Positions 5,355 through 8,578 of a DNA stretch of 64,000 bases are shown here, in pieces. Every line of letters starts with the position of its first letter. Positions within the stretch are counted from its first letter, which is position 1. Source of the stretch: Methanospirillaceae archaeon (GTDB taxonomy: Archaea; Halobacteriota; Methanomicrobia; Methanomicrobiales; Methanospirillaceae); contig JAFGOM010000109.1 of assembly GCA_016926505.1 (NCBI GenBank), positions 1-64,000 on the forward strand, given 5' to 3'. The position numbers and the translations under genes are program-made. The notes beneath the pieces are model-generated. The model had not been told where the DNA came from, did not search any database, and was given only the letters and a program-made list of their open reading frames with translations.

Positions 5355-6020
5355 TCAGGGATATGTTCTTTTCCCGGTTTTTAGCGAATTTACTATCAGG
5401 TGAGAGGCATCTGGATAGGGGTTTTCTGATGAGAGAAAAAAGAAAGCCAGATTCAGCATCTCAACGGTATTGACATGAAAGAGAAGTCCCTTCTCGTCAA
5501 GAACCAGTTTTAATTCCTGTTGTTCATATCTGATAGAATCTCCCCGCAGGATATTTATCCCGGCAGGGCATGACATCACTCCATCAATCTCCTCAGAATA
5601 CGGAACCGGAATCGCAACCCCGAGTTCTTTATATCGCGATACCGGAACCCATACCGAACAGGCGCAAAGACCTGAATCTCTGTACTCGGTCTCGATCCTC
5701 GAGATAGTATCGCAGGAAAGGCAGGGGAGATCAACAGCAGCCACAAAGAATGCTTCCGTCTCTTCAATGGTAACGATGGTCTCGGTGAGGTCAGAAAGAT
5801 ACCCTGCTCCCTTTGATTGATACACCTCAATTGCATGAGCTCTGCAGTAATTGGCGGTATATGGAGTGTCTGGTGTCGTGACAACAAGCGGTGTGTGGCC
5901 TGCGTTACTAAATGCAGTAACGATCCGCTTTACCATGGGAATGCCATCAAGTTGCACAAGAGCCTTCTCTCCTCTTCCGAGACGCGTTCCCCTTCCTCCT
6001 GCCATAATTACTGCAAGCAT
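5355..6020 (-). CDS. cobY: GTP:adenosylcobinamide-phosphate guanylyltransferase CobY
   Basis: 221 residues, MobA-like nucleotidyltransferase fold. The signature MAGGRGTRLGRGEK at 6-19 binds the GTP phosphates, and VDLPCLS near 118 is the metal-binding segment. CobY is the archaeal replacement for CobU: it transfers GMP onto adenosylcobinamide phosphate during lower-ligand attachment of cobalamin. It overlaps the 3' end of the upstream cobD-like gene by 13 bases, and this pairing supports the cobalamin role over MobA. The C-terminus after the usual end of the fold is about 20 residues longer than expected. Corrinoids are essential for methyl transfer in methanogenesis. Confidence 0.85.
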   Translation of the reverse strand: MLAVIMAGGRGTRLGRGEKALVQLDGIPMVKRIVTAFSNAGHTPLVVTTPDTPYTANYCRAHAIEVYQSKGAGYLSDLTETIVTIEETEAFFVAAVDLPCLSCDTISRIETEYRDSGLCACSVWVPVSRYKELGVAIPVPYSEEIDGVMSCPAGINILRGDSIRYEQQELKLVLDEKGLLFHVNTVEMLNLAFFFLSSENPYPDASHLIVNSLKTGKRTYP

Positions 6021-7039
6021 TGTCGTAATGCCTCCACCAGTTGTCTGTTCTCTTCATGACGCATAACAGCGACCCTGATACAGTCCGGAAGTCCGAATGA
6101 GGTACAATCCCTGATTAAGATTCCTCGTTGTACCATCGCAGAGCAGACCCGGGCGACCGGGCTTTTGATACGAAGGAGGATGAAATTTGCTGATGCCGGA
6201 TACGCCAGGAGATCCATTAAGAAAAACTGGTCAAGGAGATAGGATCGCTCCCTTCGGATGTAGGATCGCGATACACAAAGATCGTTAATATGGGAGAATG
6301 CCTCGATAGCCATCTCTTCTGCAATGGCATTGACTGACCATGGTGGCCGTATCATCTCCATCATTGCAACAAGAGACGGATCTCCGAGTCCGTAACCGAA
6401 CCGTATCCCGGGGATTGCAAATGATTTTGTGAGTGATCTCATCACAAAGAGATGGGGAGAGGATACATCTGCAATACTCTCTTTCGGCCGTGCGAGATCA
6501 AGAAATGCCTCATCAACAAATAGTATCCCTCCTTCTTTGTGTACATCGTCTCCGTATGCAAGAATATCATCTCTGCGACATAATTCTCCGGTGGGATTAT
6601 TCGGATTGCACAGGAAGGTTGCGGCAGCTCCTGATGTGTTTCTGCTCACGGTAGCTCCGCAGATGCGCGCAGATTGGGCATATTCTCCAAAACTATGCCC
6701 TGGTATATGGGCAGTTGCATTATTTTGCAGTACCGCGTGGCAAAAAGACCTGATTATCTCAGCAGAGCCGTTTCCAACAACGACTTCATCAGGGTTGCGA
6801 TTGTGGAAACGGGCTATTATCATCTTTAATTTAGTAAAAGAATCATCAGGGTATTCTTTAATTGCCGTAGTATCTGATGGAACTGTCAGCTTGGGAGATA
6901 TCGGGTTCAGACTGGCACTAAACTCAAGGAAAGAACCGTTAAACTCTTCTCTAAATCGTTTTACCTGGCCGCCATGACGGTTATCCAAAAGATCTTCCAT
7001 GTATTGTGCCCTGCTTTCGTGGGTATCACTTGGATGCAT
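6008..7039 (-). CDS. cobD: Threonine-phosphate decarboxylase CobD-like PLP enzyme
   Basis: About 343 residues, class I/II aminotransferase fold of the histidinol-phosphate aminotransferase group. Visible are the HGG near the N-terminus typical of CobD, NPNNPTGELC (substrate and PLP pocket), VDEAFLDLA (aspartate to PLP nitrogen), and SLTKSFAIPGIRFGY containing the PLP lysine. CobD makes aminopropanol phosphate, the linker of the cobalamin nucleotide loop. The tight overlap with cobY argues for this over histidine biosynthesis (hisG, hisA and hisB are elsewhere, near 40-42 kb). In-frame starts exist at 7096, 7039 and 7000 without a decisive ribosome-binding site; 7039 is a compromise. Confidence 0.8.
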   Translation of the reverse strand: MHPSDTHESRAQYMEDLLDNRHGGQVKRFREEFNGSFLEFSASLNPISPKLTVPSDTTAIKEYPDDSFTKLKMIIARFHNRNPDEVVVGNGSAEIIRSFCHAVLQNNATAHIPGHSFGEYAQSARICGATVSRNTSGAAATFLCNPNNPTGELCRRDDILAYGDDVHKEGGILFVDEAFLDLARPKESIADVSSPHLFVMRSLTKSFAIPGIRFGYGLGDPSLVAMMEMIRPPWSVNAIAEEMAIEAFSHINDLCVSRSYIRRERSYLLDQFFLMDLLAYPASANFILLRIKSPVARVCSAMVQRGILIRDCTSFGLPDCIRVAVMRHEENRQLVEALRQCLQ

Positions 7040-7130
7040 GAGTACAAATAAATCTCGTTCATTTCTTCTTTTCCTATCCTCTGAATTACACAACATTTAA
7101 ATAAATCAAAAGGAAATTCAATATATCTCA

Positions 7131-7192
7131 CGTCTGACAAAAAGCACCTTTCTGTCTGACAGAAAGCAGACTCTCGTATGACAAGCGTCATA
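7131..7192 (+). promoter_or_regulatory. Three tandem operator-like repeats phased at 22 bp before cdrS-ftsZ2
   Basis: Three related 18-mers start at 7131 (CGTCTGACAAAAAGCACC), 7153 (TGTCTGACAGAAAGCAGA) and 7175 (CGTATGACAAGCGTCATA), exactly 22 bases apart, about two helical turns. They share YGTMTGACA. Local dyads are included: CTTTCTGT-ctg-ACAGAAAG (7148-7166) and GTATGAC-aagc-GTCATAC (7176-7193). A TATA-like AATATATC lies near 7120-7127, so the array would cover the transcription start and leader. The natural ligand would be the ribbon-helix-helix protein encoded just downstream. The repeats are seen directly; binding is inferred. Confidence 0.6.
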
Positions 7193-7207
7193 CACTATGT
7201 GATAAAC

Positions 7208-7387
7208 ATGATGAGACGAATTACCATTCGACTGCCAGAGCAGCAGGTTGCCACATTAGAGAAACTGGTAGCTGCCGGGGAATTTCCAACCGTCTCCGAA
7301 GCTATCAGGGGCGCCGTACGTGAGCTGATCCAACAGAGGGCACCAGATGTCCTTGCAGAAAGTGACAAAGTTACACTGAGTCTGTGA
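7208..7387 (+). CDS. cdrS: CdrS-like ribbon-helix-helix transcription regulator
   Basis: 59-60 residues. MRRITIRLPEQQVATLEKLV is the beta strand and first helix of a CopG/MetJ-type ribbon-helix-helix fold, followed by the turn GEFPTVSEAIRGAVRELIQ. Such dimers insert paired strands into the major groove. The first ATG in frame (7178) lies inside operator repeat C, so the start is taken at the ATG pair 7208/7211. The gene sits 27 bases before ftsZ2. In haloarchaea a short RHH regulator, CdrS, is co-transcribed with ftsZ2 and controls division genes; the same order here makes CdrS the best call. Autoregulation through the upstream array is inferred. Confidence 0.8.
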   Translation: MMRRITIRLPEQQVATLEKLVAAGEFPTVSEAIRGAVRELIQQRAPDVLAESDKVTLSL

Positions 7388-7414: not shown

Positions 7415-8578
7415 ATGCAGAGTATCATTAATGCAGCAGTAATGAATGCTGAAAGAGAAAAAGAAAGTAAAAAGCGCTCTTCTGCCTATGAAGACGATAT
7501 CGATGGACAACCACGCATTGTGATCATCGGGTGCGGAGGAGCCGGAAACAACACGGTGAACCGCCTGCATCACATGGGTGTGTCCGGTGCCGAGACGATT
7601 GCCATCAACACGGATAAACAGCACCTTGATATGATCCAGGCCGACAAACGGATTCTTATTGGGAAATCCCTGACAAAGGGTCTTGGTGCAGGAGGATATC
7701 CTGAGGTCGGACAAAAAGCAGCAGAGATGGCCCGTCCGACTCTTGAGAATCTGTTGGAATCAACCGATCTCTGTTTTATCACTGCAGGTATGGGTGGTGG
7801 AACCGGGACCGGATCCGCACCGGTGGTTGCAAAGATCGCAAAAGAACAGGGTGCGATCGTTGTTGGTATGGTCAGTTATCCGTTTGATGTAGAGAAAGCA
7901 CGTCTTATCAGGGCAGAAGATGGTCTTGATGCTATATCTGCCTCAGCAGATTCAGTTATTGTTCTTGATAACAACCGCCTGAAGAACTACGTACCCAACC
8001 TGCCACTTGCCCAGTCATTTTCAGTCATGGACCAGTTAATTGGTGAGACCGTCAAGGGAATCACCGAGACGATAACCGAGCCGTCGCTCATTAACATCGA
8101 TTATGCTGATGTAAAGGCCATCATGAGCAAAGGTGGTGTTGCGACGATGCTTGTTGGTGAGAGTAAACAACAGAATAAATCTGAGAGCGTGGTTAAGGAA
8201 TGTCTCTCAAACCCGATGCTTGATATTGATTACCGGGGTGCTACCGGCAGTCTCATCCATATCACCGGGGGTTCTGATCTCACACTGATTGAATCTGAAG
8301 AGATAGCAACGTCCCTAACCTATGAACTGGATCCCAATGCCGATGTAATCTGGGGTGCACGAATCAGGAATGATATGGAAGGAAAGGTACGTGTCATGGC
8401 TATCATGACCGGTGTCCAGAAGATTGATCCCATGGCAGCGATGCAGGAACGGTACTCTGAAAAATTACAGTACCAGAGAAACCGTATATCAAATCCTAAA
8501 ATACCTGACATCAGTGCGATAAAAGGAAATAACTGGGTAAAGGACGTAGCCAGTGGATCAGATATTATCTGGATGTAA
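7415..8578 (+). CDS. ftsZ2: Cell division GTPase FtsZ2
   Basis: 387 residues from the ATG at 7415, preceded by AGGGGGAG, a very strong ribosome-binding site; an upstream TTG in frame at 7391 is not needed. The GTP-binding domain shows GCGGAGNN (39-46) and the tubulin signature GGGTGTG (127-133), with the T7 catalytic loop in [11 protein letters not shown]. The N-terminus ([15 protein letters not shown]) and the stretch [19 protein letters not shown] resemble haloarchaeal FtsZ2, the constriction paralogue, more than FtsZ1. It polymerises at midcell to form the division ring. The C-terminal tail is shorter than in haloarchaea. Its co-occurrence with cdrS supports the paralogue call. Confidence 0.93.

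Follow-up and report, generated by a model that had tools for sequence, protein, structure and literature searches.

A conserved 11-bp-phased array of GTCWGAC-type sites in the cdrS-ftsZ2 leader of Methanomicrobiales, a predicted operator for CdrS

Arc and MetJ are RHH regulators whose dimers stack along DNA, with Arc dimers approximately 11 bp apart and MetJ using tandem near-palindromic boxes 8 bp apart. In Escherichia coli, RelB cooperatively autorepresses its operon at relO (PMC2812701). CdrL was found bound at cdrS-ftsZ2 in Halobacterium (PMC7439475), and ChIP-seq of CdrS in Haloferax volcanii identified 18 sites with a symmetric motif, at targets that include ftsZ1 (-50), dacZ (-47), and psmB (-72) (Table 1 in PMC8406309). 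Most of these Haloferax sites precede the transcription start by 41-110 nt (i.e., an activator-like position), the cdrS promoter is absent from the published list, and silencing of cdrS-ftsZ2 lowers ftsZ1 expression (PMC8406309). The control of FtsZ levels in archaea is poorly known beyond two haloarchaea.

Here, we describe an array of sites in the cdrS-ftsZ2 leader of a Methanospirillaceae archaeon. Neither the protein family nor this kind of operator is new, while in the literature searched we found no report of this operator in methanogens, no description of the cdrS-leader site, and no description of its phylum-wide pattern. The original prediction that had drawn attention to this leader stated that no CdrS site was described in methanogens, which fits the literature found, with the addition that a CdrS motif from ChIP-seq exists for Haloferax (PMC8406309).

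The cdrS leader and its repeats

The stretch of DNA analyzed, referred to here as the window, comprises 64 kb. In the window, a gene for a short RHH (CopG-type) protein lies directly 5' of ftsZ2, as is characteristic of cdrS, with a gap of 27 bp between the two genes (Table 1); the adjoining RHH regulator gene had been correctly recognized in the original prediction. The start codon of cdrS is the ATG at 7208 or 7211, and the best NCBIfam match of its product is NF058555 (haloarchaeal CdrS). Since the score of 60.2 bits is under the cut-off of 100 for this model, which is named for Halobacteria, we regard the protein as a CdrS-like homologue that does not belong to the model. The ftsZ2 product shares 67-68% identity with haloarchaeal FtsZ2, and the genome's other ftsZ-like gene is located elsewhere, away from cdrS. 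The divergent cobD-like gene lies on the other side of the common intergenic region; the array also precedes the start of this gene and might influence it as well.

We found that the 9-mer YGTMTGACA starts at 7131, 7153, and 7175, in steps of exactly 22 bp, just as had been claimed. The heptamer GTMTGAC is common by itself, with 18 occurrences in the window compared to 13.3 expected. A YGTMTGACA pair at a 22-bp step without mismatches is unique to the cdrS leader within the window, and shuffles contained a mean of 0.39 such pairs even when up to three mismatches were allowed. Both strands of the 168-bp intergenic region together contain four GTMTGAC sites (7132, 7154, 7176, and 7187) in a common 11-bp register, compared to a mean of 0.045 sites in shuffles of the region, none of which (0 of 20,000) contained three. 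A chance origin of the repeats is ruled out by the shuffles of the pair pattern and of the intergenic region. A perfect 19-bp palindrome, CTTTCTGTC-T-GACAGAAAG (7148-7166), is centred on slot 3 of the array.

We read these sequences as copies of a palindrome-like heptamer, GTCNGAC, which is the true unit and is arranged over six slots in an 11-bp register; steps of 22 bp are seen in the window because slots 2 and 4 are degenerate there. The repeats had been presented as three 18-mers. The 9-mer is indeed shared, but past these nine bases the 18-mers no longer agree, and the number of sites is four to five, distributed over six slots, rather than three. Slot 6, the 11-bp period, and the partial site in slot 4 had been missed. 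The common 11-bp register supports the earlier proposal of operator-like repeats on one face of the DNA.

Table 1. Features of the cdrS-ftsZ2 locus in the window
Feature	Position	Strand	Remarks
Aminotransferase gene, cobD-like, divergent	6008..7039	-	PF00155; TIGR01140 248.6 bits, under the cut-off of 290.6
Predicted TATA box of cdrS-ftsZ2, TTTAAATA	7096..7103	+	36 bp upstream of slot 1
Predicted operator slot 1, GTCTGAC	7132..7138	+	Exact match; kept in 34 of 35 genera
Slot 2, AGCACCT	7143..7149	+	In register, degenerate; departs from the consensus here and in almost every genus
Predicted operator slot 3, GTCTGAC	7154..7160	+	Most conserved slot in the order
Slot 4, AGCAGAC	7165..7171	+	Partial site; two mismatches to GTCWGAC
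Predicted operator slot 5, GTATGAC	7176..7182	+	Pairs with slot 6 (GTATGAC-N4-GTCATAC)
Predicted operator slot 6, GTCATAC	7187..7193	+	GTATGAC on the minus strand; 11 bp past slot 5
cdrS, RHH (CopG-type) regulator, 58-59 aa	7208..7387	+	PF01402, E=8e-10
ftsZ2, tubulin-like division protein	7415..8578	+	PF00091 and PF12327; TIGR00065 413 bits

Across the order, cdrS is present in 190 of 199 genomes. Approximately 90 cdrS leaders of the order were inspected, and the counts that follow are from one representative each of 35 genera. These leaders contain 135 near-exact GTCWGAC sites, or 3.9 per leader compared to 0.45 in shuffles, and 91 of the 100 spacings between neighbouring sites are multiples of 11, compared to 9.1% in shuffles. 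In 34 of 35 genera, slots 1 and 3 are separated by exactly 22 bp, and 32 of these 34 have a TATA-like box 35-44 bp upstream of slot 1. The consensus of slot 4 over 34 genera is ggCaGAC. Many relatives have clean sites in slots 4 and 5, and all six slots are filled in L082, L084, and L085. This occupancy of the intermediate slots in relatives rules out a 22-bp unit and shows that the unit is one helical turn, 11 bp, of which the 22-bp step of the window represents a subset. The 22-bp phasing that had been proposed is therefore a real and conserved spacing, though not the unit, and the absence of motif and spacing from close relatives, which would have counted against the proposal, was not observed. 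Slot 2 keeps its length over 34 genera and carries a consensus site almost nowhere.

An extended two-unit pattern with at most one mismatch was found in 60 of the 199 genomes of the order, mostly at cdrS, while the reversed control was found in 0 of 199. As in tandem RHH operators of the Arc, MetJ, and RelB type, near-palindromes recur in the array at a fixed register along a single DNA face. These data indicate that the array is a real and strongly conserved operator, with protein binding predicted.

Candidate regulator and direction of control

The motif of the methanogen leader recurs at haloarchaeal CdrS targets. In Haloferax species, GTCNGAC-N4-GTCTGAC is present upstream of ftsZ1 in 5 of 5 cases, GTCAGAC is present at -48 from the start codon of dacZ in 11 of 11, and GTCWGAC is present upstream of psmB in 6 of 7; by comparison, neither psmA1 nor psmA2 is a ChIP target, and there is one stray heptamer in 14 of their upstream regions. 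Among haloarchaea more broadly, 61 of 80 dacZ upstream regions contain an exact GTCNGAC. Counted by hand, the published ChIP distances match the positions of GTCNGAC to within a few bases, in a comparison made by target gene and position rather than by the published logo and in genomes other than that of H. volcanii. Since GTCNGAC lies at Haloferax CdrS targets, the motif of the methanogen cdrS leader is, by target and position, the motif found at ChIP-verified CdrS targets.

Given this match, we consider it probable that the array is the cdrS-ftsZ2 operator, to which CdrS binds cooperatively and through which it represses its own operon. One CdrS RHH dimer would occupy each GTCNGAC near-palindrome, which would be read by the antiparallel beta-strands, and dimers in slots 11 bp apart would be adjacent along the same DNA face and would bind cooperatively. 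Cooperative autoregulation is a likely reading of such a phased array. For the Methanospirillaceae archaeon, we infer each of these elements, i.e., CdrS binding, cooperativity, and repression as the direction.

Based on the usual archaeal TATA spacing, the transcription start is predicted at approximately 7122-7128, and the array would span approximately +7 to +70 of a leader of approximately 83 nt. Since the predicted TATA box lies 36 bp upstream of slot 1, the array would fill the 5' leader. The repeats had been thought to overlap the transcription start; slot 1 lies just downstream of the predicted start instead. Since the array begins just past this start, a filled array would block polymerase there, resulting in negative autoregulation, and since CdrS is made from the message of FtsZ2, it would limit the levels of both proteins and keep them within bounds. 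It is unlikely that CdrS instead activates the operon, or that it acts as activator or repressor depending on its dose, as has been proposed for haloarchaeal targets. The upstream position of most Haloferax sites and the drop in ftsZ1 upon cdrS-ftsZ2 silencing (PMC8406309) point toward activation, but in nearly all genera of the order the array is downstream of the TATA box, where it is expected to block polymerase. We favor repression because the array is in the leader, while the sites of haloarchaeal targets are upstream of promoters.

The location within the predicted 5' leader, together with the complementarity of some pairs of sites, would also suit repeats that act at the RNA level by structuring the leader of the message. 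We regard this as highly improbable since there is no Rfam family match, an 11-bp register counts for the faces of DNA and not for RNA, the central base alternates between A and T such that complementarity between slots is lost, and the same motif lies upstream of promoters in haloarchaea.

A search with the RHH_1 model in seven genomes of the order recovered CdrS and a NikR-like protein as the recurring RHH proteins; the genome of the window has three RHH matches in addition to these two. The E. coli NikR operator is GTATGA-N16-TCATAC, which slots 5 and 6 (GTATGAC...GTCATAC) resemble in their half-sites and the array resembles in its 22-bp step. Even with a NikR-like protein recurring in the order, binding of the array by NikR is very unlikely. 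Sites across the order have GTCWGAC at 11 bp as their consensus rather than GTATGA, the NikR-like protein of the window genome has a different beta-strand (RIGVSLP compared to RITIRLP in CdrS), and the division operon is no nickel target. Moreover, GTATGAC and GTCATAC stand 11 bp apart in front of division genes, whereas the half-sites of a NikR operator are approximately 22 bp apart and belong to nickel genes.

Leaders across the phylum and other possible targets

A CdrS-like match was found in 110 of 157 genomes from a phylum-wide draw. We inspected 39 leaders outside the order and found related arrays before cdrS in most of the other lineages covered. Two genomes of lineage f8 (L154 and L192) contain GTCAGAC-type sites in an 11-bp register, many genomes of lineage f9 contain GTCGGAC spaced 11 and 10 bp, several of them with a single site only, and most inspected Halobacteria contain GTAAGAC-N4-GTCTTAC. 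The leader of one distant CdrS-like match (L189) was without any array site. In lineage f9, the CdrS beta-strand is changed (RKIS.RLT compared to.RIT.RLP) in parallel with the changed centre of the site, a correspondence that is only suggestive. In haloarchaeal leaders (L157-L171 and L331-L337), an extra GTCTTAC also precedes the start codon by approximately 20-30 bp, often with an intervening GTAAGAC, outside the 11-bp register. At two haloarchaeal loci (L163 and L170), no cdrL-like gene is evident directly upstream of cdrS, and GTAAGAC-N4-GTCTTAC is still there.

The haloarchaeal site bears on whether a factor other than CdrS, such as an RHH counterpart of CdrL or an unrelated regulator, controls cdrS-ftsZ2 from outside. 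Of 10 haloarchaeal genomes searched, 6 contain an exact GTAAGAC-N4-GTCTTAC whose sole location is upstream of cdrS, the pattern that a single-target factor would be expected to show. The changed half GTAAGAC may explain the absence of cdrS from the Haloferax ChIP list, and it is also compatible with another binder. The binding of CdrL in Halobacterium and the three additional RHH matches in the genome of the window likewise allow for an outside regulator. We nevertheless consider one to be quite unlikely in the order, since CdrL is reported from halophiles only (PMC7439475), the array is kept where CdrS and the NikR-like protein are the sole recurring RHH proteins, and GTCNGAC is found at known CdrS targets in Haloferax species. 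The pair GTATGAC-N4-GTCATAC of the window resembles the CdrL-type site in layout only.

With autorepression by CdrS as our preferred reading for the order, we tentatively suggest a history that we hold to be possible, somewhat short of probable. An 11-bp-phased GTC-N-GAC array would be ancestral to cdrS-ftsZ2 across the phylum, with a single CdrS repressing itself in methanogens; in haloarchaea, the half-sites would have changed to GTAAGAC and the site passed to CdrL, freeing CdrS for broader regulation of ftsZ1, dacZ, and the proteasome.

Other paired targets are not evident in the genome of the window. The two-unit pattern with at most two mismatches gave 31 sites compared to 30 for the reversed control, and nearly all matches, the cdrS leader excepted, are inside open reading frames; this search covered paired sites, and single sites may occur. 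No site was seen upstream of ftsZ1 in six methanogen genomes inspected, and single-unit matches in other genomes of the order (L110, L114, L117, and L120-L124) revealed no recurring target except that of genus g4. Eight genomes of this genus (L372-L379 and L116) contain a three-slot array, GTATGAC-N4-GTCATAC-N4-GTCWGAC, before a gene for a protein of approximately 110 aa that is without a convincing Pfam or NCBIfam match. This array is on the far side of the gene's TATA box. The gene is likely a second CdrS target.

Comparison with known systems

A defined operator that is conserved in the order and recognisable across the phylum makes control of the division operon reducible to a simple binding and reporter experiment. 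The array also offers base-level, if predicted, evidence on the binding specificity of CdrS, and it points to a possible rewiring of the operon's control between methanogens and haloarchaea.

The operators of Arc and MetJ differ from the array described here in that they have unrelated sequences and genes and are phage and bacterial. At relO of E. coli, RelB likewise places RHH dimers on adjacent palindromic half-sites approximately one turn (12 bp) apart, though in a toxin-antitoxin operon with two half-sites, a 12-bp step, another sequence, and RelE as co-repressor (PMC2812701). CdrL of Halobacterium salinarum is an RHH protein that binds upstream of cdrS and controls the same operon; it is a longer protein of halophiles, and the haloarchaeal site is GTAAGAC-N4-GTCTTAC rather than GTCWGAC repeats (PMC7439475). 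In the CdrS regulon of Haloferax volcanii, the 18 sites are mostly upstream of promoters with none listed at cdrS, whereas here a multi-slot array occupies the cdrS leader and no second paired site is evident in the genome. Common to both are a regulator of the RHH family encoded beside ftsZ2 and the motif GTCNGAC, which is often paired at 11 bp before targets in Haloferax species (PMC8406309).
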